DNA of 27,940 nucleotides from a virus, in IMG/VR virus record IMGVR_UViG_3300025138_000262, positions 1-27,940 of that record; one strand, given 5' to 3'. This document shows, one piece after another, positions 1-20,631 of this stretch. Position 1 is the stretch's first letter; each line of letters starts with the position of its first letter. The notes below the pieces were generated by a model, which had not been told where the DNA came from, ran no database searches, and saw only the letters and a program-made list of their open reading frames with translations. Both the position numbers and the translations under genes were made by a program.

Positions 1-2463
1 CCAGGATTAGTAAGTGGAAGTGTTCAAATACTACCAGATCTTGAATTAGAAAAAGTAGATAATGATAATACCTTAGATAAAGTATTAGTAAGAGATGCAA
101 CCACAGGAATTATAAAACAAAGAGATGCTTCTAGTATATCACCACCAATTGGTAGTGGTACATTATATAGATTACCGTTATGGACTCCCGATGGTACTAC
201 ATTGGGTGATTCACTTTTAATTCAAGATGGAGATGTAAGCACTCCAGCTACTCAAGTTACAAATGATGGTATATTAATAAATACAGGAGTTGTAAAACTA
301 GACTCTGTTGCTAATGACGATTCATTAGTGCAGGTATTAGTAAGAGATACTGCTAACTCTAATGAAATAAAATATAGAGCTGCATCTAGCATTAAACCTC
401 AAGTTGGTTTTGATACATTAGCTATGACACCAGATGGATGGGCTTCTGCTGATGGAAACTTTAATGCTTTTGTAAATCTAGATGATTCAGTTACAGCAAT
501 TAAAAACATAAATAATATGACATGGCTTGTTGATGGTGACAGAGTCGTTGTTATTGCAGCAAATAATAAAACAGGCACAATATTAGCAGATAGTGTCCTT
601 AGATTTAAAGATTGGGTATATCCAGGAGCAGGTGGTAGACTAGTAACCAATTTTGGTTCATGGGTTCCGTCATCTTCTGATTTAGCATATCCTACTGCAA
701 CTCTTTTATACGGAGAAAAAGTTAAGTTTAAAGCAGAAATGTATGATATACCATCTACTACAAATAGTCAATTAAATTGGGATGCTTGTTGTAAAATATT
801 CTCAGCAAATCTTTGTCCAACAGGATCAAATGGATCTACAACAATGGATGAAGATACTACTTTTACAGGCGCATTTAATGGTATTGATGATGGGTATGGA
901 GGTTATGGTTTAACATATTCAATTGTAACTCCACCAAGTAATGGTAGTGTAACAATTACTAATGCAAGTACAGGTGCTTTTACATATACACCAACTGCTA
1001 ACTACTTTGGTACGGATAGTGTAACATGGAAAGTAAATGATGGATATTGTGATAGTATAGATTATACTTTTACTTTTACAATTAATGCTACAGATGATGC
1101 ACCAAGATGGACATCAAGTGATCCAGTAACACTTAATACATATCCAACTTTAACTGGAGGAGATGCATGGACATACAGTTGGACTGTAGCAGATGATGAT
1201 ACTGCATGTGCTAGTTTAACATTCCCATCACAAACAATACCTAGCTGGTTAACATTTACTAATAATGGAGATTGTACAGGTACATTATCCGGTACATATC
1301 CTACCGCAGGAGGTAATTTTGCAGTACAATTAAATGTATCTGATGGAACTGACACTGCTTCACAATCTTTTAATATTGGAGGATTAGCAGTAACCGAGGA
1401 TACTTACTTTGTAAATTGGTTTGATGGTTCCGGATCTATGGATACTACAGGAGCAATACTTTCTGCAAATTCTAGTACACCATTAGTTAGGTGTCAATCT
1501 AATGGTGCAGGTAGTGGTACAGTAGCCTTGACAGTACAAGCAGGATCAGCAACAGCTAATGTAGGAATATATGTAGATGATACTGGAGGTAATGGATATA
1601 AGGCATTTAAACTTTTAGTACCTGGTATGACAGTTTCAGGAACAGGTATAGCTGCGGGAACTACAATTGCAACGGTTAGTAATCAGAATATAACATTAAG
1701 TGCTGCTCATACTACTAGTACTGGAGATATAATTACCTTTGCTAGAACAACTGCCCAAAAGACCACTGATTATAATGATGGATCTACTTTTAGAAATTTA
1801 TTACAAGATTTCTATGCTACAGGCGGAACTGAAGCATCAGGTAATACAAATTCAGCAACCAATGGGGCTGATGAATATGATAGTCATGTTTTCTTTGGTT
1901 GGGATGGATATAATGCTGAAGGTAATGGTGAAAGACAAATACAATATTTAGCTAACTTAGGTAATCCAATTACTGGAGCAGGTACTAAATTTCCAAGTGC
2001 TTCTACAGTTGTAGTAATGGCATGGGGTGATGAATCAGATGACTGGTATACTTCAGGTGGTACACCATTTGCAAGTCAAACTTCAGTACAAGGAGCTAGA
2101 GTTGCAGCTGATGTAGGAGAAGTACAAACTTTTATTCAAGATGCAGAAGCTGATGCATCAAATAATTCAATATATAGAGGTATTTGGTTTAGTGTAGGTA
2201 ATAGTAATACTGATTACAGAAATATAGGTCAAGGATTACAAAATGGTATTAGCCCAGCATCACAATTTTCATCTACTGGTTGGAATAATGGTTCTTTACT
2301 TGTAGGTAATTCATCTGGCACTCCAACTAGAATACAATATGCAGGACAAACAGGAGATACAGATTATGTAAATGGTGTTGCTGCTAATAATGCAGTTACA
2401 GGATATTATAGAGGCGTGGTACTTGCTAAATTACAAGATAGCGGATTTTCAACTTTAACATAA
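1..2463 (+). CDS. Large tail-fibre/adhesin-type structural protein (5' end outside window)
   Basis: The reading frame is open from base 1 to the TAA at 2461-2463, so the gene starts upstream and about 820 residues of its C-terminal part are visible; the TTG at 202 is not a real start. In order it shows: two copies of a ~30-residue motif ending LVRD..(x)n..K.R..SSI (nt 52-138 and 295-393); a cadherin-like/tandem-95 type domain (about nt 838-1095, with DEDTTFTGAF, a TYSIVTPPSNGSV-like strand and NYFGTDSVTWKVNDG); an Ig-like (He_PIG-like) domain (about 1099-1380, IPSWLTFTNNGDCTGTLSGT); then a VWA-like part with a DGSGS metal-site motif (nt 1423-1437) and a VVVMAWGDES strand (about 2005-2035). 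A GMTVSGTGIAAGTT beta segment (about 1624-1700) lies between these. Such domain strings are typical of phage tail fibres or receptor-binding proteins. It is the only structural-type gene here and is opposite to the replication genes. The function is inferred from domains; the receptor is unknown. Confidence 0.8.
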   Translation, partial: PGLVSGSVQILPDLELEKVDNDNTLDKVLVRDATTGIIKQRDASSISPPIGSGTLYRLPLWTPDGTTLGDSLLIQDGDVSTPATQVTNDGILINTGVVKLDSVANDDSLVQVLVRDTANSNEIKYRAASSIKPQVGFDTLAMTPDGWASADGNFNAFVNLDDSVTAIKNINNMTWLVDGDRVVVIAANNKTGTILADSVLRFKDWVYPGAGGRLVTNFGSWVPSSSDLAYPTATLLYGEKVKFKAEMYDIPSTTNSQLNWDACCKIFSANLCPTGSNGSTTMDEDTTFTGAFNGIDDGYGGYGLTYSIVTPPSNGSVTITNASTGAFTYTPTANYFGTDSVTWKVNDGYCDSIDYTFTFTINATDDAPRWTSSDPVTLNTYPTLTGGDAWTYSWTVADDDTACASLTFPSQTIPSWLTFTNNGDCTGTLSGTYPTAGGNFAVQLNVSDGTDTASQSFNIGGLAVTEDTYFVNWFDGSGSMDTTGAILSANSSTPLVRCQSNGAGSGTVALTVQAGSATANVGIYVDDTGGNGYKAFKLLVPGMTVSGTGIAAGTTIATVSNQNITLSAAHTTSTGDIITFARTTAQKTTDYNDGSTFRNLLQDFYATGGTEASGNTNSATNGADEYDSHVFFGWDGYNAEGNGERQIQYLANLGNPITGAGTKFPSASTVVVMAWGDESDDWYTSGGTPFASQTSVQGARVAADVGEVQTFIQDAEADASNNSIYRGIWFSVGNSNTDYRNIGQGLQNGISPASQFSSTGWNNGSLLVGNSSGTPTRIQYAGQTGDTDYVNGVAANNAVTGYYRGVVLAKLQDSGFSTLT
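52..393 (+). repeat. Two copies of a ~30-residue repeat within the fibre protein
   Basis: Copy 1 is nt 52-138 and copy 2 is nt 295-393. Both encode K(V/L)D, then an Asn/Asp-rich turn, then VLVRD, then a short variable stretch, then IK(Q/Y)R and a final SSI. The copies are about 155 bases apart and diverged at DNA level. More copies may lie upstream of the window. Short repeats of this type are common in the shaft of phage fibres. Confidence 0.6.
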
Positions 2464-2469
2464 CCCATA

Positions 2470-2525
2470 GGAGAAGGGGAATAAACATTTTACATTGTCT
2501 TATTCCCCTATTGGTTTATTTCTCC
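2470..2525. terminator. Bidirectional stem-loop terminator between convergent transcription units
   Basis: A perfect 10-bp stem pairs 2475-2484 (AGGGGAATAA) with 2500-2509 (TTATTCCCCT) around a 15-nt loop. A second, outer pairing joins GGAGAA (2470-2475) to TTCTCC (2520-2525). It lies 7-60 bases after the fibre stop codon and downstream of the minus-strand genes ending at 2530/2610, so it can end transcription from both sides. T-rich sequence flanks it but there is no pure T run. Confidence 0.65.
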
Positions 2526-2529
2526 CAGA

Positions 2530-2607
2530 TTAATAATTATCTAAATCATTATTATGAGTGATATAAAAACAAAATACAATACCAAAAATTATTAAGGTCC
2601 ATATCAT
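2530..2607 (-). CDS. Putative 25-aa single-membrane-span peptide
   Basis: The ATG at 2607 begins 2 bases after the stop codon of the DUF932-like gene (TAA at 2612-2610). The product starts MIWTLIIFGIVFCFYI and ends in the polar tail THNNDLDNY. The first 16 residues form one hydrophobic helix, long enough to be membrane-inserted. It is the last frame before the terminator hairpin at 2470-2525, as expected for a last gene in an operon. No clear ribosome-binding site is visible, which is normal for Bacteroidetes. A frame this short can occur by chance; the tight spacing and hydrophobic pattern are the only support. Function unknown. Confidence 0.35.
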   Translation of the reverse strand: MIWTLIIFGIVFCFYITHNNDLDNY

Positions 2608-2609
2608 TT

Positions 2610-3509
2610 TTATCTGCCCATAAATACATCTTGAATTAACCTTTTTTCTGTAACATCTTCATCTATTTCTATAGCAAAATCAGTGTCTGCCATAGTAATA
2701 TCTAATTCAATGTTATTATGATTTAACTCATAATTTTTAATATTATTAGGATTCAAAGATTGATTGTTTAAACACTCAATTGTCATAAAATCATGAAAAT
2801 TTTGTTGATCATTTAACCAATCTCTAGGATGAGCTTTCTTTAATGAATGTGTAACATGATTGTAAAAGGCCCAAGCACTAGCATTAATTTCTGTTTCACC
2901 ATAATCAAAAGAGGGTTTATCCATTTCACTTTTTAAACATGACATCTGTTGAGTATCAAGTAAATCTTCTTCAATGAATAATCTACCTGCAAGTTCGGAT
3001 TGTTGTTTACAATTCAAACTGATAGATTTTAAAGCATCTTTGTCTGTTATTAATCTTTTATAATACTTTTCACCATTTTTAATTTGGCTAGCAATTTGGT
3101 TTCTTACATCCATATCTGCAGATCCTGTATGTTTTCTTTTAAAATTAAACATATCTCCGGCCATCATTCCATTGGAGCATACTTTTACATAAGCTCCAAT
3201 AGAACATTGAAATCTGGTGCTTTTGTCATAAGAATTTGTCCAAGAAAACATCATTCCTAATTCCTTTTCATTGTTGATTAGGGTGTCTGTGCTGTTAGGT
3301 ATAATATAATATATACCTCTTGCAACATTTGCATTCATGTTACATATATATAACTGTTCTGTAATGTTAAATCCACTATTTTCTAGTAGAGTTAAAGTGT
3401 TGTCAATTACCGTCTTATGCGGTATGACTGTATAGCTCTTACCATGATTTGGTAAGGGTGCATTTTCCAGATAACTTCTGGTTTGTGATGATGGTTTTTT
3501 GTAACCCAT
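2610..3509 (-). CDS. DUF932-like phage/plasmid protein
   Basis: The product is 299 aa. Residues 89-115 carry the pattern SWTNSYDKS ... G.YVKVCSNGM, which I recognise as the core of the DUF932 (phage/plasmid-like protein) family, found widely on phages and plasmids. Its biochemical role is not established; links to replication or to countering host defence have been suggested for relatives. The segment after residue 200 is acidic and variable and ends in IDEDVTEKRLIQDVFMGR. The ATG at 3509 is the only start that keeps the basic N-terminus. It is followed directly by a possible tiny membrane peptide and the shared terminator, so it lies at the end of its operon. The family call is by motif; function is unknown. 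Confidence 0.65.
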   Translation of the reverse strand: MGYKKPSSQTRSYLENAPLPNHGKSYTVIPHKTVIDNTLTLLENSGFNITEQLYICNMNANVARGIYYIIPNSTDTLINNEKELGMMFSWTNSYDKSTRFQCSIGAYVKVCSNGMMAGDMFNFKRKHTGSADMDVRNQIASQIKNGEKYYKRLITDKDALKSISLNCKQQSELAGRLFIEEDLLDTQQMSCLKSEMDKPSFDYGETEINASAWAFYNHVTHSLKKAHPRDWLNDQQNFHDFMTIECLNNQSLNPNNIKNYELNHNNIELDITMADTDFAIEIDEDVTEKRLIQDVFMGR

Positions 3510-3560
3510 AGTATTAAACTTTTAAGGTGTAAATATAATAAATTAATCTGACTCAGCAAA

Positions 3561-3896
3561 TTAATATCCTTTTTCTTTAAGGAATTTTTTGACACAGGCA
3601 GGACAAGGTTTTATGTTTTTACTTATCCATATTAAATAATTGATAGGTATCTGACTAGGTTTTTTACCTTTGTACTTACCAAATCTTAATGTTGGTTTGT
3701 TATCAGGTTTTAATAGTCTTGTGTTTCCTTCTTGATTCCAAGAATTTCTAAATGAATATTGTCTATTATCATGTGTTACTGAGATTTTTTCTTTGATAGA
3801 TTTATTAACTTTAGAAATTGGTATTTTAAAATATTCTGAGGCTAGTTTTTTTGACTCAAACTGTTGACGGGTTTTCCATTCAATTATAGTAATCAT
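3561..3896 (-). CDS. Small protein with NUMOD1-like HTH and DUF3820-like C-terminus
   Basis: The product is 111 aa. Residues ~14-48 (SKKLASEYFKIPISKVNKSI, then a short basic strand ending in QYSFR) resemble the NUMOD1 DNA-binding helix-turn-helix often attached to homing endonucleases. Residues ~70-95 (LRFGKYKGKKPSQIP..YL.WI) match the DUF3820 pattern FGKYKG.....P..YL.W. A CPAC pair lies at ~98-101 near the C-terminus. No nuclease catalytic motif is visible. It may be a DNA-binding remnant of a homing-type protein or a small regulator. A strong hairpin (3900-3926) ends three bases before its ATG. Both domain calls are by eye. Confidence 0.6.
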   Translation of the reverse strand: MITIIEWKTRQQFESKKLASEYFKIPISKVNKSIKEKISVTHDNRQYSFRNSWNQEGNTRLLKPDNKPTLRFGKYKGKKPSQIPINYLIWISKNIKPCPACVKKFLKEKGY

Positions 3897-3899
3897 ATT

Positions 3900-3926
3900 G
3901 GAGAGTCTTTTATTATAAGACCCTCC
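3900..3926 (-). promoter_or_regulatory. Stem-loop directly upstream of the start codon at 3896
   Basis: Read on the minus strand, GGAGGGTCTT (3926-3917) pairs with AAGACTCTCC (3909-3900): ten base pairs including one G-U, closing a 7-nt loop. It sits between the polymerase stop (3945) and the ATG at 3896, with only three bases between the stem and the ATG. There is no T run after it, so it is a weak terminator candidate. Its position fits control of translation initiation, RNA processing between the two genes, or attenuation. Confidence 0.55.
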
Positions 3927-3944
3927 GTTAAAGGTTTATACATA

Positions 3945-5609
3945 TTAAAATAATTTTAATTGATTATTATTTATAGTGATAATACTATTGATCTCAGATT
4001 CTATAGCTTGCATATAATAAGACTTATTGATATTATAGTTTTCCCATTTAGGTTCTACGGTCATCTTATTAAATACAGTTTGTAGCCACTGGCCTGATTC
4101 TAATTGTATTTCTCTTCCATCTGTTTTATTTACTTTAACTATTTTTTTACCTATAGAAGATATAAAATATCTATTTATTTTTTGTAATTCATCTTCTACT
4201 AAAGAACCATTTTTTATATGTCTGGCTATTTGCTTCCAATCTCCTTTAGATTTTCCACCAATACAATAGTCTAATATATTTTTATTCTTATTTAAATAGT
4301 CTTCAGGCAATATATCATGTACAAAGTATTGATAAATAGCTTTAGGTATAACTAACTTAGATTTGTTTTTATGTAATTGTAATTCATGGAAGTCAAAACG
4401 GCCTTTGAGTTTAACAGGAGCATAACTAAACTTATCATTCTTTACTTTAAATAAGTAATGAGGCTGTTTTTGTTTAACTTCTCTCCATTTAGTGATATCT
4501 ACATCTATATAGTTATTCACACCAATATAATTATTGACATCAGCAAGCACCAATTTTTGGTATTCATCATGTTCAAGATTTAAATTGGTTTTGTCTTCCC
4601 ACTCTTTACATATTTCCATATAAAGATCTATATACTCCCTAGGTATTATAGTCTCAACACCATCTGTGTTTTGTAATAAAGCTACAGCACCCGGTATTCT
4701 TTCCATAATTTGTTCATATAACATCATAAGAGTCAATTGACCATTAATAGTTATACGTAAACAAAGTTCAGGATCATAAAAGAAACTGTTTACATCATTA
4801 CTAAGGCCAAAAGTAGAGTTAAGTATAATCTTATATACATAATTCATTGGATTACTCTTAGGAATCTTCTTACGCTCTTCAAAGAACCATTCATATTGAT
4901 TACAAAACTCATCTTTTGGAAAGTGTTCTGGTGACCATTTATTTTTAATAGCAAGATTAGGATAAAAACTAGTAACGTCTGACGACATTATAACTAAATC
5001 TTCTGTACTTTCATACATTCCTTTACTATTAGCACCATGCGCACCACCTAAACCAAAATGTGTTTTAACATCTTTATAATCTATATAATATTTAAATCCT
5101 CCTTTTAAGCTTGCCGCATCTACTTCAAGTGTTTTAAATCTATCATGTAAAGTTTTAAACTCATCTGAGGTAAAAGAAACACAAGGTAAAATTATATCTT
5201 TTACTTTGATTGTATCTCTATAAGTTCTCATCTTCCTTAAATCTTTTTTAGGGATATTTAAATTTCTAGATAAATAATAACCAAATATTTCTTTACTAAT
5301 TCTTGGTTCTGAGGCGCTAAACATATTTATACCATATGTTTTTGTTAATTCCTTTCTTAATCCAATCTGTGATTTAGCTCTATTATATACTTCTTTAGTT
5401 GATCTAACATCATTAACACAATATTCTAAGATAACATCTATTTCTTTTTGTGTAGTTATCTCTGTCTCATGATGTATAGGCATATCAAGAATGTTTTCCC
5501 AATCCATACTATACTGGATCCACTTCAGACTAGAACGTTTAGCCGGGTTGTCCCAATGATGTAGTTTAAATACATCTATTTGGCTTACAATGATGTAGTT
5601 TAAATACAT
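3945..5609 (-). CDS. Family B DNA polymerase, exonuclease motif III plus polymerase domain (separated from its N-terminus by a frameshift)
   Basis: The 554-aa frame carries Exo III (YCVND, residues 63-67), polymerase motif A (DVTSFYPNLA, 211-220; catalytic D211), motif B (KIILNSTFG, 260-268) and motif C as NTDG (314-317; D316), which stands for the usual DTD. The segment FGLGGAHGA (185-193) precedes motif A. It is the phage replicative polymerase by content. Exo motifs I and II are in the preceding frame (5566-5970). Its apparent start at 5609 lies inside the second copy of a 34-bp tandem duplication (5554-5621); the first seven residues are out of frame with the ancestral protein and homologous sequence begins at SQIDVFKLHH. 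Removing one copy joins the frames into one protein of about 670 aa. It could be a mutant, a true two-subunit enzyme or an assembly error. Confidence 0.85.
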   Translation of the reverse strand: MYLNYIIVSQIDVFKLHHWDNPAKRSSLKWIQYSMDWENILDMPIHHETEITTQKEIDVILEYCVNDVRSTKEVYNRAKSQIGLRKELTKTYGINMFSASEPRISKEIFGYYLSRNLNIPKKDLRKMRTYRDTIKVKDIILPCVSFTSDEFKTLHDRFKTLEVDAASLKGGFKYYIDYKDVKTHFGLGGAHGANSKGMYESTEDLVIMSSDVTSFYPNLAIKNKWSPEHFPKDEFCNQYEWFFEERKKIPKSNPMNYVYKIILNSTFGLSNDVNSFFYDPELCLRITINGQLTLMMLYEQIMERIPGAVALLQNTDGVETIIPREYIDLYMEICKEWEDKTNLNLEHDEYQKLVLADVNNYIGVNNYIDVDITKWREVKQKQPHYLFKVKNDKFSYAPVKLKGRFDFHELQLHKNKSKLVIPKAIYQYFVHDILPEDYLNKNKNILDYCIGGKSKGDWKQIARHIKNGSLVEDELQKINRYFISSIGKKIVKVNKTDGREIQLESGQWLQTVFNKMTVEPKWENYNINKSYYMQAIESEINSIITINNNQLKLF

Positions 5610-5621
5610 CTATTTGGCTTA
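5554..5621. repeat. Perfect 34-bp tandem duplication inside the polymerase gene
   Basis: Bases 5554-5587 and 5588-5621 are identical over all 34 bases. Each copy holds a 19-nt imperfect palindrome (5558-5576 and 5592-5610; GATGTA..TTTAAA..TACATC). Because 34 is not a multiple of three, the second copy shifts the reading frame. On the minus strand both frames encode SQIDVFKLHH, once at the end of the exonuclease frame and once at the start of the polymerase frame, which shows directly that the sequence was duplicated within a continuous gene. Confidence 0.95.
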
Positions 5622-5970
5622 TCTTCATTTTCCATTGTGGATAATCACTAAATTCTTTTGCATTAGACTTTTGAATACAACGTTGCGCATACTTATAAAT
5701 TATATTTGCAACTTCACAGCCACTTAAATTAAGCCAGCTTTTATGATTATCAAGTATATAGTGAGTGACCTGGCCATCAAAAGCTAATCCGTTGTAAGAT
5801 ATATGCCACTCTTTATTATTAATGTTTTCATTAAGAAAACTTATAAAATCATTAAGATCATTACGGAGGTCATGTACAACAAAGACTTTAGTTTCTGTAG
5901 TCTTATAATGTTCAAATACCCCAGTAAAACAATTCTTTAATGTTTCATAATCCATTACCCAATGTCTCAT
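5566..5970 (-). CDS. DnaQ-like 3'-5' exonuclease part of the family B polymerase (N-terminal fragment)
   Basis: The product is 134 aa. Exo motif I is DYE (D7, E9) and Exo II is NGLAFD (N60, D65), the metal-binding set of a proofreading exonuclease. Exo III and the conserved tyrosine are missing here and found in the next frame. The last nine residues (after LHH: CKPNRCI) are a frameshift tail produced by the 34-bp duplication and stop at TAA 5568-5566. Its ATG (5970) overlaps the stop of the upstream HTH gene as ATGA, so the two are probably translationally coupled. Alone, the fragment lacks a full active site; it could only work by pairing with the downstream product or if a frameshift event joins them. 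Confidence 0.85.
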   Translation of the reverse strand: MRHWVMDYETLKNCFTGVFEHYKTTETKVFVVHDLRNDLNDFISFLNENINNKEWHISYNGLAFDGQVTHYILDNHKSWLNLSGCEVANIIYKYAQRCIQKSNAKEFSDYPQWKMKISQIDVFKLHHCKPNRCI

Positions 5971-6134
5971 GCTTTTTCTTTTTTAGTAGGTGTGTGTAAA
6001 CCAAGTTCAATTCTATAATTATAAAGAGTTTTAGATGTAACACCTAGAGCTGCGGCAGCAGTTTCAAGACAGGGATGTCTTTTTATTGCCAACTTCATTA
6101 CTCTTATTCTCATTTGATCTATTGTCTCTATCAT
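5967..6134 (-). CDS. 55-aa Fis-type helix-turn-helix protein
   Basis: The frame runs ATG 6134 to TGA 5969-5967. Residues ~17-45 read LAIKRHPCLETAAAALGVTS followed by KTLYNYRIELGL. This is the Fis/NtrC C-terminal HTH pattern (HTH_8): a first helix, then an AA..LG..S..T.Y...... recognition helix. The protein is almost only this DNA-binding domain with a basic tail (TPTKKEKA). Its stop overlaps the start of the polymerase exonuclease frame (ATGA), and its 5' part overlaps the previous gene's 3' end by 71 bases in another frame. The position suggests a regulator or DNA-bending factor made together with the polymerase. The start could also be M8 (6113) or M13 (6098). Confidence 0.7.
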   Translation of the reverse strand: MIETIDQMRIRVMKLAIKRHPCLETAAAALGVTSKTLYNYRIELGLHTPTKKEKA

Positions 6135-6405
6135 CATTATAGTTTTTAATTGCCACGGATTTAGCTTCAGCTAATAGATCCATTATACAATCATATATGC
6201 TTTCAACAGCTTTTAATTGATCAGGATCTAAAGTTTTATTTATTTCCTTATCATATTTATTTACAGATTGTATGACTTGTTTTACTCTATATTTTACTTT
6301 ATGTTTATGTAGAAATTGTAAACCATGTACAGTTTCGGCCATGCATTTATTTAATGCAAATAATATATTTACTTCTAATGATTCTTCTGCGCTTAATTCA
6401 GCCAT
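6064..6405 (-). CDS. Hypothetical helical protein, 113 aa
   Basis: I chose the ATG at 6405 (MAELSAEESLEVNILFALNK) because the longer frame to 6426 would need a TTG start. The product looks fully alpha-helical, with charged and hydrophobic residues alternating in coiled-coil-like fashion and an Asn/Asp/Arg-rich tail (DDRDNRSNENKS). I recognise no family. Its last 71 bases overlap the start of the Fis-type HTH gene in a different frame, and a possible terminator lies just upstream at 6429-6450, so it may begin a new transcription unit that includes the HTH protein and the polymerase. Confidence 0.6.
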   Translation of the reverse strand: MAELSAEESLEVNILFALNKCMAETVHGLQFLHKHKVKYRVKQVIQSVNKYDKEINKTLDPDQLKAVESIYDCIMDLLAEAKSVAIKNYNDDRDNRSNENKSNEVGNKKTSLS

Positions 6406-6428
6406 ATAATTATTTATTAGTGCCAAAA

Positions 6429-6450
6429 AAACCCCAAATCAATGAGGTTT
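6429..6450 (-). terminator. Possible weak terminator after the 6479-6895 gene
   Basis: On the minus strand AAACC (6450-6446) can pair with GGTTT (6433-6429), and the 3' arm runs into TTTT (6428-6425). The stem is only five pairs with a 12-nt loop, so it is weak. It lies 29 bases after the stop codon of the long operon that begins at 13780, and the 50-base gap contrasts with the near-zero gaps upstream. Confidence 0.35.
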
Positions 6451-6478
6451 CCTTTTTAATCAGTACCGATACAACGAA

Positions 6479-6895
6479 CTACTGACCAGGTAAGATAAGA
6501 TTAGATACTTTAGTTTCTTTTACATCAACAAAATATTGTTGCCAATCAAATTGCTCAGCGTTTATAGCAAACATATTAATTAGTAATTCAATATCATTTT
6601 TATCAGTAAGATAAAATTCTGAAAATGTATCAACCAATCTTCTCTCTTCTTTAACAGTTTTACCTGTCTGTGGATTTGGATTTTTTAATCTTTGTGGTTC
6701 ACCATTATCATCAAGTCTTGGTACCATATGATATGATTGTTTCATCACTTTACTGATGACTGCTAAAATGCCTGATGTTGGGTCAAACATAGCTTCTGTG
6801 TATGGTGAGTCCATGCTCACTGGAATTAATGTAAATGATTTAGCGTTTCTAAAAGTAGAATTTACTAACATCATATTCTGTCCTATTTGTGCCAT
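6479..6895 (-). CDS. Hypothetical protein, 138 aa, last gene of the MoxR/VWA operon
   Basis: The sequence begins MAQIGQNMMLVNSTFRNAKS and has a middle segment SPYTEAMFDPTSGILAVISK that looks beta-rich, a proline/basic loop (QRLKNPNPQTGKTVKEERR), and an acidic helical end (DIELLINMFAINAEQFDWQQ). I do not recognise a family. There is no signal peptide or membrane span. It follows the 194-aa gene with a 2-base gap and is the last gene before a possible terminator. Its place at the end of a string of near-contiguous genes with the MoxR/VWA pair suggests it belongs to the same functional unit. Confidence 0.7.
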   Translation of the reverse strand: MAQIGQNMMLVNSTFRNAKSFTLIPVSMDSPYTEAMFDPTSGILAVISKVMKQSYHMVPRLDDNGEPQRLKNPNPQTGKTVKEERRLVDTFSEFYLTDKNDIELLINMFAINAEQFDWQQYFVDVKETKVSNLILPGQ

Positions 6896-6897
6896 TA

Positions 6898-7482
6898 TTA
6901 TTTATTTTGTTTAGTCAAAGATATGGAACTTTTTTTTAATAGTTGAAAAATAATATGAGTATTATCTATGAAAGTTTCTTTTTTTAAATCTGGAGGACTG
7001 CATACCTCATATATTTTTTGAATAATTTCTACATCAACCCCTAATTCTTTTGCATATAACTCATGCACATCTTCAGGAGATAGAAACCCTTCAACATATG
7101 AAGATATCTTTTTCTGATTTGAAAAGAAATCCAATATACTAATTTTATTATTCAATGAAAATTGTGAATAAGCACCAGATATAAACCTTTGAAAATCAGA
7201 TTTATATGCAGTGAAATCAAATATAAATAAATGTTTATCATTATTTAATTCTATATAGTCTTCAAATAATTTATGATTTTGCAAATAATTAAATGAGAAT
7301 TTTTTAAATGTGGACGTCATCTTGGTACTGTATTCACAGAAAAACCTATTATTTTCAGTAGAGTAAACATTTTCCCATGCAACATAAGTTTGCACGGGAA
7401 CATGTGATACGCCTTTTCTTATCTTTAATAAAGGATATAGAAAGACCTTACTTTTTTGAAAAAATTCTGTATAAACACCCAT
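6898..7482 (-). CDS. Hypothetical protein, 194 aa, in the MoxR/VWA operon
   Basis: The N-terminal half carries aromatic-rich segments (FLYPLLKIRKGVSHVPVQTY, a YSTENNRFFCEYS segment, FSFNYLQNHKLFEDYIEL) that look like a mixed alpha/beta domain. The C-terminal half contains LSPEDVHELYAKELGVDVEI and ends in a basic, Ser-rich tail. I do not recognise a family and see no catalytic motif, signal peptide or membrane helix. The start at 7482 is one base after the PD-(D/E)XK nuclease stop, and the next gene follows after two bases, so it is translated as part of the operon. Confidence 0.7.
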   Translation of the reverse strand: MGVYTEFFQKSKVFLYPLLKIRKGVSHVPVQTYVAWENVYSTENNRFFCEYSTKMTSTFKKFSFNYLQNHKLFEDYIELNNDKHLFIFDFTAYKSDFQRFISGAYSQFSLNNKISILDFFSNQKKISSYVEGFLSPEDVHELYAKELGVDVEIIQKIYEVCSPPDLKKETFIDNTHIIFQLLKKSSISLTKQNK

Positions 7483-7483
7483 A

Positions 7484-8470
7484 CTATAATTTAATCTTAT
7501 TTACTAAGAAATCATAAGGTAGACTATAATTTCTGTTTTCATAATGATATTTAGCAGTTTTTAATGCACCGCTTAAACCACCAGCCCAGGCTGATAATGT
7601 ATCATCTAATACATCAAAAACATAAACTTGTTTGTATAAATCTATAACAACAAACTTAAAAACTATATTGTAATCATCTCTATCATCTCCTAAAGAGTCA
7701 TAAACTAACTTTGAATATATAGCTGCTTGCAACCAATAATTATAAAAATCAATAGTCTCTTTAAAATCTGAAATTGTTTTCCCTGTGGTTTTTAAATCAC
7801 AAATAGTAACTTGCTTTTTATCAGAATCAACAGTATAATGGTCAATGTATCCATGTAAACCAAAAGGGTAACCTTCTAGTGTAGTTTCTAAATACTTCTC
7901 ACTAAATGATTCTATAGGATCTAAATCAAAGTCTGTACTTACTTCATTAAATAAAGACATTACATCTTTATTTTCTTTTAGTATATCTACTTTTTCTTTA
8001 CATCTTAATAAAGTATCCTGATCAACAACGTCAACGTTACTATTACCTATGAATTTCCAGTATGGTTCATTGTCTTCTGTTCTAATTTTAGCTATCCTTG
8101 ACTCATCAGCCTTAAGAGATTGATATAAGTTTAATTCTTTTAAAGAATCTAGTATAACAAAGTCATCACAACTTACTAATGTTTCTGCATCAGTATGAAG
8201 AGCCATATCTTTCAATACTTTTCTAACACTATCTGATGGTGCTTTACCGGGAACAATATTAAACTTTTCATTAACATTCTCAGCTTCAAATAATAGACAG
8301 TGAATAAGTTTACCTTCTATTAGATGTTTGTCTGTTCTGACCTCACGGTCCCATAATATATAGTCCTTATAAAATAAGGATGGTGAAAATAATAATTTGT
8401 TAAGAGAAGAGTAGCTCCACTTAAATTTCTTTAAGTAGAACTCTTCTTCTTTCTGTAAGTCTTTAATCAT
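7484..8470 (-). CDS. PD-(D/E)XK nuclease of the RecB/Cas4-like type
   Basis: The 328-aa product has the usual layout of RecB-family phage exonucleases: an N-terminal WSYSSLNKL helix, a GKLIHCLLF segment with H57, the motif GYIDHY (D210), the catalytic ICDLKTT (D225, K227), and a downstream NYWLQAAIYS helix with the Q...Y-type conserved glutamine (Q248). This fits a DUF3799-like/exonuclease group that degrades or trims double-stranded DNA in recombination. No cysteines are placed to form the iron-sulphur cluster of Cas4. It overlaps the upstream paralogue B gene by 8 bases and is followed after one base by the 194-aa gene, in the middle of the MoxR/VWA operon. The exact substrate cannot be told. 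Confidence 0.8.
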   Translation of the reverse strand: MIKDLQKEEEFYLKKFKWSYSSLNKLLFSPSLFYKDYILWDREVRTDKHLIEGKLIHCLLFEAENVNEKFNIVPGKAPSDSVRKVLKDMALHTDAETLVSCDDFVILDSLKELNLYQSLKADESRIAKIRTEDNEPYWKFIGNSNVDVVDQDTLLRCKEKVDILKENKDVMSLFNEVSTDFDLDPIESFSEKYLETTLEGYPFGLHGYIDHYTVDSDKKQVTICDLKTTGKTISDFKETIDFYNYWLQAAIYSKLVYDSLGDDRDDYNIVFKFVVIDLYKQVYVFDVLDDTLSAWAGGLSGALKTAKYHYENRNYSLPYDFLVNKIKL

Positions 8471-9611
8471 TTATTTTTGAATTTAATTCATCTGCAATAT
8501 ACAAATTTTCAAGATCAATTTTAAATACTTCTGATTCTGGTCCAACCATTGCACCCATCAACTTTTCAAGAATATACTTTCTTGTTTTGTCAACTGCAAA
8601 TCTTGATAGTTTTCCATCATCTGCAAGTTTCTTCAGGTATCTATTATAAGACCATATATTACTTGTACAATGGTTACCTTCATATGCTTTTAATCTGTTA
8701 CGCATTGTTTTTACATTAACTGAATTCCAGTTTGTAGTATTTTTAAACCAATCATAATGCCAGTAATATAATCCAGATACAACATCAAATGATTTTTCTA
8801 TATTACAATTAGCTAACATCTCAATTGTTAATGATCTATTCTCCATATCAGCACTTGTGATCATATTTTTAATATTATCATACTCAGTGTTTTCAATTAC
8901 TGCTAACTCAGCATCAATTATATTACATATTTGTGAATCATATACCATCAAAGAAGTATTATTTTTTAAATCTTCAAATATTTTATAATTTGTTTTTTGG
9001 AGTACCCAATCACTATTACCTAAACCTGTATTACCAGAAGTAGTAATCCAATTTTCTAAATCATTTATTATCAAAGATTTAGCAACATCAGATTGATTCC
9101 AATGTTTCCTAATATTAAAAGTAACCATAGAATCAGTTGGAGCCATTTCTAGAAAATCTTGAAGTTTAACAACAGCTAAATCTGACAATATGCTTTTCTC
9201 TTTCATATAAACCAGTATATCAAATGCTTTTTTATATGTTATGGAAGAATTCCATTCTCTATCAAATATTGTATTAAAAAGCTTATAAGATACAACTGCT
9301 ACATCTGCTTTAGATGGGTCTCTAATTACTTTACAGTTGTATTTTTCTTTTAACAAATCAACTTTTTGTCTTGGAAGAGTAATTTTAGGAAATCTATATA
9401 TTTTTTTATCTTGTAAACTAAGATTTTCAACATTAGTTACCATAGGTAATGACAAAGAAGCTAAATCTTCTGGATCTAACTCCCATTTATCATTTGATGT
9501 TAACCACATACAATCAGATTTACTAAAATTTATAGCAGTTTGCTTTAATTGATTTTTGTCATTCCATTCTCCATCATATGTATTTATTTCTAATTTATAT
9601 TTTTCTTTCAT
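8463..9611 (-). CDS. Hypothetical protein, 382 aa; paralogue B of the tandem pair
   Basis: Residues 68-108 (DKKIYRFPKITLPRQKVDLL, then KEKYN..KVIRD...ADVAVVS) align without rearrangement to residues 67-106 of the next upstream product (9616-10659): both have KK, a PK.T strand, an LKE helix, a D and a hydrophobic strand after AD. A second block (around residue 240-270, ADMENRSLTIEMLANCNIEK) aligns with SRHNEDRVLALKIVPTICYK of the partner. The first block has the strand-helix-strand pattern seen in BRCT or Rossmann-like folds. No enzyme motif is evident. It sits between its paralogue (4-base gap) and the PD-(D/E)XK nuclease (8-base overlap). Function unknown; paralogy is my reading. Confidence 0.75.
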   Translation of the reverse strand: MKEKYKLEINTYDGEWNDKNQLKQTAINFSKSDCMWLTSNDKWELDPEDLASLSLPMVTNVENLSLQDKKIYRFPKITLPRQKVDLLKEKYNCKVIRDPSKADVAVVSYKLFNTIFDREWNSSITYKKAFDILVYMKEKSILSDLAVVKLQDFLEMAPTDSMVTFNIRKHWNQSDVAKSLIINDLENWITTSGNTGLGNSDWVLQKTNYKIFEDLKNNTSLMVYDSQICNIIDAELAVIENTEYDNIKNMITSADMENRSLTIEMLANCNIEKSFDVVSGLYYWHYDWFKNTTNWNSVNVKTMRNRLKAYEGNHCTSNIWSYNRYLKKLADDGKLSRFAVDKTRKYILEKLMGAMVGPESEVFKIDLENLYIADELNSKIND

Positions 9612-9615
9612 TATT

Positions 9616-10659
9616 TTATTTTAAATATTGTTGATACTCTTTTTTCACAGCTACTTTAAATGTATAAAGATCTCTGTTGTGAATACTTATTTCTTTTCTT
9701 ACTATAGGCTCAAGGTATCTAAATGATACTTTATCAAGTTTATCTTTACTATCTAACCACAGTATCATATCCTGAGCACTTCTTCTTTCTAACTTTGTAA
9801 AGCCAGATGCATCAATCCAATACTGTAGATCTTTATCTCTATTATCAGCATAAGTTATCATACTACAATCTTGAGCAAATTGCCATAGTAAATGATAGTT
9901 TGTTTTATAACATATAGTAGGAACAATCTTAAGAGCTAAAACCCTATCCTCATTATGACGTGAGTTATCTAATTGAACTTTAAGATCTGCTAACAATTGT
10001 TCATCAAGAATCATCTTAGTTGCAGAAGCATGAAGTACTGTCTCAGGATCAATAACACTTACATCTGTGGTATCAATTATATAAGCTAAATTAATAGCCA
10101 TCCCAGTTAACATCCAGGAATCATACAAACTGTCTTCTATATCTAAATCATAGTATCTTACACTTTCTGTAAGCTTAGGTGTTATTATAACTTCTAGGCC
10201 TGAATTAGCAATTGCTATTTCTTTAGGGTGTGTTGCTGAAGATCTACCTAATGTAGTTTCATAATTCCATAACTTGTTCATCATTACAGTAGAAGGTATA
10301 TTCTCAGCGTTTTCTAGACGGTGGGTTGATATATCTTCATGACCTATAATTAAATCAGCTAGTTCGTAATCATTTGTTACAGTTATACCGTGCTCTTTAA
10401 GAGCTGCTTTTAATCTATCTTGAGATACAGTACACTTAGGTAATATAAAAGCTTTCTTTTTATTTCTAAAAGTAGTGCCGTCTTCTGTTGGCACTGTTAA
10501 TATAGTGTTTATTTTTTCATATGTTGTTTGATCTTGAGTACATAATACTTCATCTATTTCCCCTGAAGTAGAAAGGACACCATAAGTAGTGTCCTGTTCT
10601 AAATCAAAGTAAGCTAAAGCATCAGTATCAAAATCTTGATATACTGATTTATTTGCCAT
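9616..10659 (-). CDS. Hypothetical protein, 347 aa; paralogue A of the tandem pair
   Basis: The N-terminus is acidic with a possible beta-rich region (residues 1-60). Residues 67-106 hold KKKAFILPKCTVSQDRLKAA, LKEHGITV and ADLIIG, a strand-helix-strand unit like a BRCT repeat, shared with paralogue B. A second shared block lies around residues 230-255. The C-terminal third is helical and basic (FKVAVKKEYQQYLK). It starts one base after the MoxR ATPase stop and is followed by paralogue B after four bases, which links it tightly to the ATPase/VWA pair. It may be a substrate adaptor or structural partner of that machine, but this is inference. Confidence 0.75.
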   Translation of the reverse strand: MANKSVYQDFDTDALAYFDLEQDTTYGVLSTSGEIDEVLCTQDQTTYEKINTILTVPTEDGTTFRNKKKAFILPKCTVSQDRLKAALKEHGITVTNDYELADLIIGHEDISTHRLENAENIPSTVMMNKLWNYETTLGRSSATHPKEIAIANSGLEVIITPKLTESVRYYDLDIEDSLYDSWMLTGMAINLAYIIDTTDVSVIDPETVLHASATKMILDEQLLADLKVQLDNSRHNEDRVLALKIVPTICYKTNYHLLWQFAQDCSMITYADNRDKDLQYWIDASGFTKLERRSAQDMILWLDSKDKLDKVSFRYLEPIVRKEISIHNRDLYTFKVAVKKEYQQYLK

Positions 10660-10660
10660 A

Positions 10661-11932
10661 CTATTTCATTGTCATTTTGATAACCTCTGGGATCATCATG
10701 AATTTATTAAACTTCTTTTTATTACCATTAAAAATGGTCCGTACAACTAGATACTTAAGATCATTAGTAAAATAATCTTGAGTACATAAAGCTTTAAGTC
10801 TATCTGTAACTTTCTGACTTACTGTGTTATCTTTAGAATAAACAACAGAATAATTACCTAGTCTTGTAGCTAGCGTTGATGCAATATCTGCACGGTATGT
10901 ATCATCTTTACCAATACAACTTCTAAGCTCACCTAAGATATATGATTCATTATCATGAGTCAACAAATCTTTTGGTGTTACTAGCTTATCAAGCTTGTTA
11001 TTAATAAATGTAGTAAACATTGACGCAAATGAATCACCAACACTACCTTCTCCAATCATTTGAACTAAACTTAAGTTATCTTCAAATTTTTCAAAGCTTG
11101 ATATAGCATTAAAGAATGTTGTAATAGATCTTGCATTTGTTTCTTGTGTTACTAGTTCTGGGTGTAGCAAAAGAAAGTTAATACATCTAGTATCTATCCC
11201 TGCACCTTCTGCCCATTGAGCCCATACATTAACATCAAACTTAAGATTAGCAGTTACATATCTAGTCTTTTGTGCAGAATCTACACTGTTAACCATATAA
11301 TCACCATTATCCGGGTTAGCTGTTAATATAATATGCCAATCTTTTGGTAGAGTCCATGAGATATAAGTCTGACGGTCTATTAATTCCATAACTGCTTGAA
11401 TAAATCTTGTATCAGCTCTATTCCAGTCATCTAATAATAAGATACCACCTTCTTTTGCATCAGCAATCCATTCAGGAGCACAATAAGACATTCTATTCTT
11501 ACCGGTCATTTTATATCCTTGTTTAAGATATTCTTGTACTGCTAACTCATCAACCCATTGGCCTACTTTCTTAGTAGTTGGTGTTGATATATTGGCAAGA
11601 CTTGTTCCCGCTGCTCTTTGTGTTGCAGATAACATAGATAAATCATCTATTTTCTTAGCTGGTATTATTTTTTCTTTATACATCTGAAATTGACGTACAG
11701 GAAAACCCACTAAGTCACCTAGCTCTTCTATTTGTGCTAGATTAAGTTTTACAAACTTGAGTTTATTATCTTGAGCAAGCTCAACTATAGTAGATGTTTT
11801 ACCAATACCTGATTCACCCACAACTTCTACAGAAACCGGACTTTTTCCTACTCCTTGTAAATATCTATTATTTGTAATTATGTGATTTACAAATCCTTTT
11901 AACTCCGTTACATTTAAATTTACTTGTGCCAT
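10661..11932 (-). CDS. MoxR-type AAA+ ATPase
   Basis: The 423-aa product has Walker A GESGIGKT (39-46), Walker B ILLLDD (164-169) followed by WNRAD, sensor 1 in TANPDNG (N206), and an arginine (R224) in the DSAQKTRY segment at the arginine-finger position. The insertion with RQTYISW after Walker B fits the MoxR/AAA_5 (helix-2 insert) clade. MoxR ATPases act as chaperone-like remodelers paired with a VWA-domain partner; here that partner is the next gene upstream (11939-13102, 6-base gap). All nucleotide-handling motifs look intact. Related AAA+/VWA pairs include CobS/CobT-like chelatases, also reported from phages, but no porphyrin or cobalamin gene is present here. Confidence 0.88.
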   Translation of the reverse strand: MAQVNLNVTELKGFVNHIITNNRYLQGVGKSPVSVEVVGESGIGKTSTIVELAQDNKLKFVKLNLAQIEELGDLVGFPVRQFQMYKEKIIPAKKIDDLSMLSATQRAAGTSLANISTPTTKKVGQWVDELAVQEYLKQGYKMTGKNRMSYCAPEWIADAKEGGILLLDDWNRADTRFIQAVMELIDRQTYISWTLPKDWHIILTANPDNGDYMVNSVDSAQKTRYVTANLKFDVNVWAQWAEGAGIDTRCINFLLLHPELVTQETNARSITTFFNAISSFEKFEDNLSLVQMIGEGSVGDSFASMFTTFINNKLDKLVTPKDLLTHDNESYILGELRSCIGKDDTYRADIASTLATRLGNYSVVYSKDNTVSQKVTDRLKALCTQDYFTNDLKYLVVRTIFNGNKKKFNKFMMIPEVIKMTMK

Positions 11933-11938
11933 TTTCTA

Positions 11939-13102
11939 TTAATTTAATTTAATTACTTGTCCTGGTAACTCATTGTTTATTTCAGATATACTACTAAGAA
12001 CCCATAAAGTATTCTTAGGACAGTCATCTGGAGCATATGCTTCACCATCTGTTAAATATATTAGAGCTGTATAACTCCCCTTCTTTTCATTATAATGATC
12101 AATTACAGGTTGGAATGATGTCCCACCTCTACCATGTATTTCCCAATCTTTTTTAGGATTAAATTCCTTCACACTATTAAGCTGTGTATCACATTGTGCT
12201 ACTGTAATTTTATGGCCTGTCTTGTACATATGAGCAAGCTCACTGAAGAATTCTTTTAACTCTTCATTATTTACAGATCCACTTGTGTCAACACCAACAA
12301 GTATATGATTTTTAAATTTAATTTTTAAACCAGGATTACCTGAATAACGTTTATTATATTTACGTCTTAGCTTTTTAGTATATACAATACTAGAATTACC
12401 AACAAATCTTTTTAGATACCCTTTCCAATCAAACTTAGCTGGTTCAATATGCATAAGCCTCTCTATAAGCTCTGCAAGTTCACCTGGTATACTACCACAC
12501 TTTTTTTCTGTTTGTTCAGCAGAAGCCTTTAATTGATGTTCTATTTGTTTTTCAACTAACTTTTTATCTGCTTCAGGTAAATCATCAAACTCATTCCATG
12601 TACTATGACAATGTTGGCTATTACCATCCATCTGGCTCATTAAGTTATCTAATGATGGGCAATTCCCATCTTCCTGTGCTTGTTCTAATAATTCATAATA
12701 CTTTTTAGTACCTGCTTTTTTAGGAAGATTTAATTCTGGAAAACTTGATAGTAGTAAACCACCTTCAGGTAATTTACTTTCCAGTATGTACTGGTTTATT
12801 TCTAGGTCAGCGGCTATATTAAATAGCTTATGATTAGAATATAGATCTCTTAATAATAAATGACCAAATGCAATATGCAAAAGTTCATGTTTAATTAATC
12901 CGTATCTATGGTCTTCACTCAAATTTGTATAAAAATCTGTGTTTATAGTCAATTGAATACCAATTCCATGTTTACTTACACCTGCTGTAGGTATGCGTAA
13001 ACTAAATTGTTTATTAATACCAATTAAAAAGAGCCCGTAAAAGGGCTCAGTAAATATTAAGTTCTTGGTTGTTTTAGCAACTAAATCTTGTATGTTACTC
13101 AT
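11939..13102 (-). CDS. DUF2201-type metallopeptidase-like plus VWA domain protein
   Basis: The 387-aa product has two parts. The N-terminal domain has a zinc-site motif HELLHIAFGH (H72, E73, H76, H81) followed by the FNIAADLEINQ segment (94-104), typical of the DUF2201 N-terminal putative metallopeptidase. The middle (145-220) is a polar, helical linker. The C-terminal VWA domain has a complete MIDAS: DTSGS (272-276), T328 in GRGGTSF and D352 in LTDGEA. This is the classic partner of a MoxR AAA+ ATPase, which follows after six bases. The role in phage is unknown; by family, the VWA binds a target through a metal and the ATPase remodels it, perhaps with proteolysis. The stop codon is at 11939 and the start overlaps the upstream gene by 8 bases. 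Confidence 0.87.
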   Translation of the reverse strand: MSNIQDLVAKTTKNLIFTEPFYGLFLIGINKQFSLRIPTAGVSKHGIGIQLTINTDFYTNLSEDHRYGLIKHELLHIAFGHLLLRDLYSNHKLFNIAADLEINQYILESKLPEGGLLLSSFPELNLPKKAGTKKYYELLEQAQEDGNCPSLDNLMSQMDGNSQHCHSTWNEFDDLPEADKKLVEKQIEHQLKASAEQTEKKCGSIPGELAELIERLMHIEPAKFDWKGYLKRFVGNSSIVYTKKLRRKYNKRYSGNPGLKIKFKNHILVGVDTSGSVNNEELKEFFSELAHMYKTGHKITVAQCDTQLNSVKEFNPKKDWEIHGRGGTSFQPVIDHYNEKKGSYTALIYLTDGEAYAPDDCPKNTLWVLSSISEINNELPGQVIKLN

Positions 13103-13391
13103 CTGTTATTTTATTAATTATGTCCATATATATTTTATTTACTTTTTTCTTTTCAAGAAATGCATAGATTTTTTTAGTACTTAATTCACCTACGTTTAAG
13201 GTGTATTTTACTGCAGTACAAAAATTAACTCTATCTTCAAACATTAAGGCTTTAGCCATTAATTTGTCTAGCACTTCTTTATTTTCATAATTTGCATTAT
13301 TATATATTTCACATGCTAGTGATTGATCTTCAGGTAAACCTTGAAACATTTGTTTATACTTAAAGAATTCTTCTAATGTGATTATTTTCAT
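13095..13391 (-). CDS. Hypothetical protein, 98 aa
   Basis: The product is helical and rich in Lys and Asn: MKIITLEEFFKYKQMFQGLP at the start and a basic C-terminal end (FLEKKKVNKIYMDIINK). I recognise no family; there is no signal peptide or membrane helix. Its ATG at 13391 overlaps the RusA-like gene's stop (ATGA-type), and its 3' end overlaps the start of the VWA gene by 8 bases, so it is translationally coupled on both sides. Confidence 0.65.
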   Translation of the reverse strand: MKIITLEEFFKYKQMFQGLPEDQSLACEIYNNANYENKEVLDKLMAKALMFEDRVNFCTAVKYTLNVGELSTKKIYAFLEKKKVNKIYMDIINKITDE

Positions 13392-13780
13392 TGAAAATCA
13401 ACTATTTCAATCCATACTCCTGGATTTTGTTTATCATATGTATACTTTTCAAATCCTGGTATAATAAATTCTGCATTATCATCTTCAATCCAACCATATT
13501 TAACCATATCATCTTGTACAGTTTGTGCAGGATTCAAATAGTCAAACTTATGACGGCTACCTCTGATAAACTCAAAAGATATTTTTATTGGTAGCTTACG
13601 TGTTTCTAATGCTTTTTTAAAATCATCAGCATAACTTAAGTAAATATCTTTAGTGGCCTTTCTATAATTCATTACAGCTTTACTTGCTATAAAGTATTTA
13701 CCTGTCCAGCGCCTTCCATTTTTACTAGAAGGTACATTGCCTGGTATCCACCAACGTTTTACTTCTCTAATTTCTCCCAT
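13388..13780 (-). CDS. rusA: RusA-like Holliday junction resolvase
   Basis: The 130-aa length is normal for RusA. The N-terminus has PGNVPSSKNGRRW, matching the RusA P.(P)...NR.R opening, and residues 75-104 have the aspartate pattern (D80, D90/D91, then WIEDDNAEF with D100/D101) seen in RusA as D.DN..K...D.L......DD..I. These acids bind the metal ions used to cut four-way DNA junctions made in phage recombination and replication. It leads the operon that includes the MoxR/VWA pair and the PD-(D/E)XK nuclease. The expected DNL is replaced by YLN, so it is a divergent member. Confidence 0.72.
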   Translation of the reverse strand: MGEIREVKRWWIPGNVPSSKNGRRWTGKYFIASKAVMNYRKATKDIYLSYADDFKKALETRKLPIKISFEFIRGSRHKFDYLNPAQTVQDDMVKYGWIEDDNAEFIIPGFEKYTYDKQNPGVWIEIVDFQ

Positions 13781-13803
13781 AATTTATTTGCTTAATTAAG
13801 TTT

Positions 13804-14790
13804 TTATTGATTTTCTTTATTTAAGGTTTCTCTTAATAAAGGTTTTAGCATTGCATGAACTTTATCAAAACCATGTGACTTCATAGCATCTGATATGTCT
13901 TTACATATAGTTGGTACAAATCCATTAATTTTATATGCATCAGCATATCTATCAACAGCCTTTAGGCCAGCCTCATCATTATCAAAAAGTGTTATTACTT
14001 TTTTATATTTCTTTTTGAAATGTTGAATTATATGAGGTTTTATCATAGTATTCTCTGAGTCTGGAGCTATAACTTCAAGGTTATACCCCATACCCTTAAG
14101 ACACATAGCATCTTTTAAAGAAGAACAAATTACTAAATAGGGTTGATTATATTCTAACTGATCTAGTCCCTGCAAGTAACTTTTAACTTTAAAGAATTTA
14201 TGTGATTTACTTTTAGGTTGATAGAATTTAAACGCTTTACCTTCTTTGTCAAAGTATCCAAAGCAACAACTATTACCTATACGTAAATTTTTTATATCAG
14301 ATTCTTTTGTTTTAACTAAATTATAATAATCTATAGGCCTAACGTTATACTTTTCAAGCATAGTTTTTCCTATTCTATAGCTTAGCCAATACTTTTGATC
14401 TTCAATACTCCAACCTTTAGTTTTAACAAAATCCAATTGCCATTTAGGCTCTGGAACTATAGTTAAATCTTTATATTCAGATGTCTTTATGTATTCATTA
14501 TAATCTGCAACAATCTTTCTCATTGCTTCAGGATATTCTATTTCAAATAACAACTTTACTAAATCTACTTTATTACCATTTTTACCAGTAGAAAAATCTT
14601 TAAACTTATATTGCATAATTTTTTTATCAACATATATGCAAAAGCTTGGTGTTTTTTCTGAGGGATTAAAGACTGATTTAATCTTTAGATCTTGGCCAGT
14701 TAGGCGTTCTGATAAATTTAAGTAATATTGAAATACCCATGTGCTTGGTACATCTGATCCTTCTAATACAAAATTTTTAGTGCTAAACAT
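13804..14790 (-). CDS. DnaG-type primase with TOPRIM domain, no zinc cysteines
   Basis: The 328-aa product has an N-terminal segment (FNPSEKTPSFCIYV...YKFKDFSTGKNGN, residues 41-73) that follows the DnaG zinc-domain pattern but lacks the Cys/His ligands. The TOPRIM domain is at ~218-290: the expected catalytic Glu segment reads ICSSLKDAMCL (221-231), with Ser in place of Glu, and the metal site is FDNDEAG (D270, D272). This SxKD form is seen in a class of phage primases. It makes RNA primers for the polymerase. It follows the SSB-like gene after a terminator-like hairpin and is followed by the RusA-like gene after 23 bases. It is shorter than bacterial DnaG and has no helicase-binding domain. 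Confidence 0.8.
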   Translation of the reverse strand: MFSTKNFVLEGSDVPSTWVFQYYLNLSERLTGQDLKIKSVFNPSEKTPSFCIYVDKKIMQYKFKDFSTGKNGNKVDLVKLLFEIEYPEAMRKIVADYNEYIKTSEYKDLTIVPEPKWQLDFVKTKGWSIEDQKYWLSYRIGKTMLEKYNVRPIDYYNLVKTKESDIKNLRIGNSCCFGYFDKEGKAFKFYQPKSKSHKFFKVKSYLQGLDQLEYNQPYLVICSSLKDAMCLKGMGYNLEVIAPDSENTMIKPHIIQHFKKKYKKVITLFDNDEAGLKAVDRYADAYKINGFVPTICKDISDAMKSHGFDKVHAMLKPLLRETLNKENQ

Positions 14791-14816
14791 AATTAAAATG
14801 TATTAATGTAAATCAA

Positions 14817-14847
14817 AAGGTGGCAATCAATCAAGAAAACCACCCTT
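14817..14847 (-). terminator. Rho-independent-type terminator after the SSB-like gene
   Basis: On the minus strand GGTGG (14844-14840) pairs with CCACC (14823-14819), with an outer AA/TT pair around one bulged base, and the 3' arm is followed by TTTTGATTT. It lies 16 bases after the SSB-like stop codon and 27 bases before the primase start. It may reduce rather than stop transcription into the primase gene. Confidence 0.5.
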
Positions 14848-14863
14848 ATCATTACTTATTCAA

Positions 14864-15538
14864 CTATAAATCAAAGTCATCTCCTGAAACTGCAGCTGGT
14901 TCAAAGCTATTTGTTTTAGGTTCTTCATTTTTAATTAGTCTTCTTAGATGATTATTATTATTAGCATCAAATTTTAAGATTCTATTAGCTTCACTATTTA
15001 AAGCTTCAATAGGAACTCCATCTTTACTTCTTTTAGGTAAAAATAAGTCATTGTTTATGTACCCATCTCTATTTTCCCACTCACGTGCACCTAAGCAAGC
15101 ATTAAAATAACCAGTGTTAGAGAATAACTTATTACACTCTACCATAAATTGATCAATTGTATTAGCTTCAATTTTATCTAGCTCAGCTCTTTTATCAAGT
15201 GCTTCAGATAAAAATACCATAGATTTTAATACTTCTGTATCTCTAGATATTTCTGTACCACTTTGTAAAGTAGTATCTTTATATGGGTAAGGACTAAACC
15301 TAACTCTACCAACTTGTCCTTCATATTTTGGACCATTTGGATTTTCCATATCTTTTAAGAAACCATTGAATTCTCCTGTGATAGGTTCTGTCTCAACATG
15401 CAATACAATATTGTATGCTTCAGCATCATATGGTGTTTGGTCAAATGATACTGAATTGATTTTGATAACATTGTTACCTGGTTCAATTACTGGTTTAGTT
15501 CCACCTGATCCGGCAGACATGTCTTTTGTGTTTAACAT
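14864..15538 (-). CDS. Candidate single-stranded DNA-binding protein
   Basis: The 224-aa product has a beta-rich N-terminal two thirds (VIKINSVSF, AYNIVLHVETEPI, QVGRVRFSPYPY), compatible with an OB-fold, and ends in the acidic tip SGDDFDL. Phage SSBs commonly carry such a negatively charged C-terminal tip with a terminal hydrophobic residue that docks partner proteins. It stands directly between the Sak4-like recombination ATPase (30-base gap) and the primase, the usual setting for SSB. No residue motif proves DNA binding, so the call rests on the tail and the neighbours. A second protein with a similar tail is at 23701-24276. Confidence 0.55.
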   Translation of the reverse strand: MLNTKDMSAGSGGTKPVIEPGNNVIKINSVSFDQTPYDAEAYNIVLHVETEPITGEFNGFLKDMENPNGPKYEGQVGRVRFSPYPYKDTTLQSGTEISRDTEVLKSMVFLSEALDKRAELDKIEANTIDQFMVECNKLFSNTGYFNACLGAREWENRDGYINNDLFLPKRSKDGVPIEALNSEANRILKFDANNNNHLRRLIKNEEPKTNSFEPAAVSGDDFDL

Positions 15539-15568
15539 AATTTACTTTTTTTAAAATTTATTTATTAA

Positions 15569-16252: not shown

Positions 16253-16254
16253 GA

Positions 16255-18915: not shown

Positions 18916-18929
18916 TTAAATTAAATTTC

Positions 18930-20630: not shown

Positions 20631-20631
20631 A

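Follow-up and report, generated by a model that had tools for sequence, protein, structure and literature searches.

The window analysed here is the whole 27,940-nucleotide stretch of DNA, from a virus of bacteria known solely through environmental sequence, in IMG/VR record IMGVR_UViG_3300025138_000262, and within it a 34-nt unit, CAATGATGTAGTTTAAATACATCTATTTGGCTTA, is present twice, head to tail, at positions 5554-5587 and 5588-5621. The two copies are identical, and matching at a period of 34 stops exactly at 68 nt (2 × 34), which confirms the perfect tandem duplication described in an earlier note on this DNA. The resulting +34 shift breaks the frame of a family B DNA polymerase gene on the minus strand and leaves pieces of 134 and 554 amino acids. 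The features of the locus are as follows.

5566 to 5970, minus strand: N-terminal polymerase fragment of 134 amino acids (open reading frame and profile match)
About 5944 to 5952, minus strand: Exo I (D-Y-E) in the N-terminal fragment (invariant motif residues)
About 5776 to 5793, minus strand: Exo II (N-G...D) in the N-terminal fragment (invariant motif residues)
3945 to 5609, minus strand: C-terminal polymerase fragment of 554 amino acids (open reading frame and profile match)
About 5409 to 5423, minus strand: Exo III in the C-terminal fragment (invariant motif residues)
D at 4977 to 4979, minus strand: motif A in the C-terminal fragment (invariant motif residues)
About 4832, minus strand: motif B in the C-terminal fragment (invariant motif residues)
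D at 4662 to 4664, minus strand: motif C (NTDG) in the C-terminal fragment (invariant motif residues)
5588 to 5621, minus strand: 34-nt copy that is read first; the identical 34 nt occurs once in the one-copy sister contig (exact repeat and sister comparison)
5554 to 5587, minus strand: 34-nt copy that is second in the reading direction, nearer the 3' part of the polymerase gene (exact repeat)
5558 to 5576 and, as its second copy, 5592 to 5610, no strand assigned: near-palindrome GATGTA-GTTTAAA-TACATC with 6-bp arms, inside the 34-nt unit (weak hairpin)
5607 to 5609, minus strand: ATG in frame with the C-terminal part, with an in-frame TAG immediately before it (sequence inspection)

The two open reading frames (5970-5566 and 5609-3945) overlap by 44 nt, and the peptide SQIDVFKLHH, which had been noticed at both broken ends, is indeed encoded in both translations. 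The N-terminal fragment ends in an out-of-frame tail, CKPNRCI, followed by a stop. Both pieces match one PHROG polymerase family, phrog_1252, consecutively (profile positions 54-171 and 159-656), and neither matches Pfam. The assignment of Exo I, II and III and motifs A, B and C in the earlier note was borne out by their placement from the invariant columns of 44 relatives. No sequence match to solved structures was found for the polymerase and the fold was compared instead, using an AlphaFold2 model (mean pLDDT 80, pTM 0.70) of the intact 663-amino-acid polymerase of the sister contig. The best PDB matches of this model by Foldseek were archaeal and eukaryotic family B polymerases, with an E value of about 1e-11 and a modest TM score of about 0.4-0.5. 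Thus, the identity as a family B DNA polymerase stood up to testing, with Exo I-III, motifs A, B and C and the PolB fold all present. The expectation that one copy fewer gives a single polymerase also agrees with the intact frame of the one-copy sister, although the size is 663 amino acids there and not the roughly 670 proposed.

The sister contig, IMGVR_UViG_3300031519_000131 (L002), is 95.1% identical to the window over 3900-13796 and 97.6% identical over 13783-25288 (about 21 kb). Because its single 34-nt copy and the flanks are identical to those of the window, the breakpoints are unambiguous, and the microhomology at the junction is zero (h = 0) on either side. Over the same 21 kb or so, no indel but the 34-nt insertion breaks a gene; the others are multiples of three, compensate each other or lie in locally divergent stretches, and leave the reading frames open. 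A contig of the same strain across the site was also sought. The one-copy form with its flanks was found by the IMG/VR scan only in the sister, and the 26-base junction between the copies had no occurrence in IMG/VR, where the window's own record may be omitted from such scans. Another contig, IMGVR_UViG_3300001589_000476 (L329), is 99.94% identical to the window over 13889-27940 and, as it stops at 13889, short of the polymerase, it neither confirms nor refutes the duplication.

Several further differences were observed in these comparisons. L329 differs from the window in eight places, five of which are clustered within 100 bp (22247-22346) and are all T versus C, as if by short-tract exchange or the mixing of two strains. 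The alignment with the sister breaks beyond 3899, where the sister has about 260 nt extra, and identity then amounts to 81% over 334-3899 overall but to 96.6% over 2499-3899, so that the divergent part is a 753-amino-acid ORF (202-2463); this is a mosaic boundary at a gene that is likely of virion or adhesin type. At 13783-13825, adjoining the primase gene and the alignment break at 13783-13796, about 0.9 kb of the sister is absent from the window. A small unlisted ORF at 5967-6137 (minus strand), MMIETIDQMRIRVMKLAIKRHPCLETAAAALGVTSKTLYNYRIELGLHTPTKKEKA, has a stop that overlaps the polymerase start as ATGA, is also open in the sister and overlaps a 120-amino-acid ORF (6064-6426) in a different frame; its product looks like a putative Fis-type helix-turn-helix protein and matches neither Pfam nor PHROG.

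The polymerase frame was uninterrupted in every readable relative, which amounts to about 130 distinct sequences from three overlapping sets. The first set, the 80 top-ranking IMG/VR relatives of the C-terminal piece, had a frame that was open through the site in every case, with L070 and L072 cut by a contig end upstream of it. In the second set of 80, the ORF was full in 79 and truncated by a contig end downstream in the remaining one, and the third, consisting of 52 relatives and four loci from genome assemblies, was uninterrupted throughout (56/56). This alignment of homologous polymerases, which the earlier note had put forward as a check, favours an event that is recent or an artefact, and a split inherited within a clade is ruled out by the single frame in all the relatives read. 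As to the genome that carries the gene, a 114.7-kb contig (L405) that encodes a 79% identical polymerase is binned in a Pseudomonadales MAG, a placement that may be contamination, and several IMG/VR relatives measure 107-118 kb; a full genome of the phage therefore probably measures about 115 kb.

The relatives also bear on the idea that the polymerase or its proofreading is switched on and off reversibly as the extra 34 nt are gained and lost. Slippage can remove one copy of an exact tandem repeat, which would permit such switching. However, no relative carries two copies or any other length variation at the site, the copy number being constant at one, and an off state of the replicative polymerase would bring no evident benefit to a lytic phage. 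The switch is thus unsupported and, in our judgement, hardly credible.

The 34-nt pair is not a matter of chance, since a census of the window and of 5.7 Mb of related DNA (loci of IMG/VR-type family DNA, with 2.7 million distinct 31-mers) showed no other exact tandem duplication with a period of 15-200. This rarity makes the duplication a genuine oddity of this record, yet it cannot tell error from mutation, and a census with no other case cannot reveal a typical artefact length or a peak of periods that would be the signature of an assembler.

To place the duplication in time, the substitutions in the polymerase were polarised with L003 as the outgroup. There were 17 synonymous and 8 nonsynonymous changes on the window branch and 15 and 4, respectively, on the sister branch, with no difference between the branches (Fisher P 0.51). 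The window branch departs from a neutral nonsynonymous fraction of 0.72-0.81 (P between 4e-5 and 9e-8), and with neutrality along more than about half of its length, a count of 8 or fewer nonsynonymous changes among 25 would have P < 0.004. The excess of synonymous changes indicates that purifying selection acted on the polymerase up to the very recent past. An old pseudogene is thereby ruled out, and the gene either lost its function only very lately, continues to function as two parts or is unbroken.

The first of these possibilities corresponds to a real, very recent and private duplication that shifts the frame and probably leaves the polymerase inactive, in a genome that is defective or sustained by co-infecting intact phages. 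Its exactness and its presence in this record only would make the duplication young, and the substitutions on the branch leave no room for a long period as a pseudogene. However, few phages in the population should carry a lethal allele, which makes it an unlikely assembled consensus. The mechanism that had been suggested, replication slippage, is weakened as well. With its exact head-to-tail copies and the shift in frame, the repeat resembles the short tandem duplications made by slippage, but ordinary replication slippage usually leaves microhomology at the junction, whereas there is none here, with flanks unchanged from those of the one-copy sister. The 19-nt near-palindrome to which a role in slippage had been given is present in each copy; its hairpin is, however, weak (-3 kcal/mol as single-stranded DNA), interior to the unit and away from the breakpoints, and hairpin-driven slippage was therefore rejected. 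Overall, we consider a recent inactivating duplication unlikely, although it ranks as the leading alternative to an assembly or library error.

The second possibility is a real and tolerated duplication, in which the 134- and 554-amino-acid products, both with SQIDVFKLHH, would associate, or the 554-amino-acid product would replicate without proofreading. The second product would begin at the ATG at 5609. This start codon had been thought to be made by the duplication itself, which is not the case; the one-copy sister already has the same ATG in another frame, and the effect of the duplication is only to align it with the reading frame of the second half. Its context is A-rich and without a Shine-Dalgarno sequence, as in the other genes of the window, so that translation of the C-terminal piece is possible, but in AT-rich DNA chance alone supplies an in-frame ATG fairly readily. 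Programmed frameshifting was also considered and rejected: the shift into the second frame would have to fall within about 5612-5566, where inspection by eye showed no convincing slippery site, and none of the relatives requires such a shift. A point in favour of tolerance is that, in the model of the sister protein (AlphaFold2), the duplicated segment ends strand 119-121 and starts a low-confidence region (124-148), perhaps a loop. Against this, the cut falls in the exonuclease fold beside the invariant Q119, D121, K124 and H127-N130, and no relative carries the split. A functional two-part polymerase is possible but lacks conservation among relatives, and we regard a tolerated duplication as quite improbable. 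It is very unlikely that this is a natural phage whose polymerase has newly become two-part, with the duplication having given both halves the same strand segment, put the internal ATG in frame and possibly weakened proofreading.

The remaining possibility, that the gene is unbroken and the duplication false, arising from assembly or library preparation, is the simplest account and the one we favour as rather likelier. We infer that assembly or library preparation linked two overlapping pieces by their ends without merging their common 34 nt, or that a chimeric molecule became the consensus, so that these 34 nt appear a second time in the record. In that case, the family B DNA polymerase of the phage would be ordinary and uninterrupted, as in all the relatives. 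This explanation is favoured by the exactness of the copies, the zero microhomology, the absence of the repeat elsewhere, the selection that shows the gene to have been in use up to the recent past and the expected lethality of a polymerase frameshift, since a frameshift that is lethal for an independently replicating phage makes a broken polymerase unlikely as the consensus of an assembled population. Exact copies that end at 2 × 34 nt are what unmerged end-to-end joining leaves, and zero microhomology fits because such an overlap leaves none by construction; the weight of the latter is modest, as about one random blunt join in two would be expected to lack homology too. On the other hand, the rest of the contig is clean, with no N and no other disrupted gene where the sister is comparable, L329 agrees with the window over 13889-27940, 34 matches no k-mer overlap that can be tied to the record, and the census of 5.7 Mb of other IMG/VR-type sequence, having no tandem duplication with a period of 15-200, indicates that such errors are rare in this material.

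If the duplication is false, which is the likelier case, an apparent gene split in one metagenome contig needs checking against relatives and reads first. If it is real and tolerated, a split replicative polymerase can begin from one small duplication, without a mobile element.

Split polymerases are known in the T4-related Aeromonas phages 25 and 44RR, in which PolB is divided into 43A and 43B, either by the insertion of a homing endonuclease gene or by a spacer that is not translated. The 43A and 43B products of phage 25 co-purify and are active together as a polymerase (PMC2988022), a precedent that speaks for a two-part enzyme. The present locus is alike in that a phage family B polymerase lies in two frames. 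It differs in that the known splits hold an inserted element and are common to relatives, whereas here the halves are separated by the 34-nt repeat alone, with no endonuclease gene or spacer, within the exonuclease domain and in one record, and the split was not shared by the relatives read. A two-part polymerase here would have only the two open frames in common with the 43A/43B group, with neither insertion nor conservation. Cellulophaga phage phi14:2 (Crassvirales) has a related polymerase whose gene is likewise annotated in two pieces; its interruption consists of several hundred bases with a small ORF near motif A (L086:3650-4080), probably a self-splicing intron to judge from the sequence, and differs in both place and mechanism.

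For a false duplication, the comparison is with those at contig boundaries, a documented assembly error that is common in long-read vertebrate assemblies (PMC8081667). The duplications of that homotype kind are about as long as a read, whereas the present one measures 34 nt in a phage metagenome contig. Both consist of exact side-by-side copies that are absent from relatives, and the finding that matching at this locus is confined to the copies accords with such an error.
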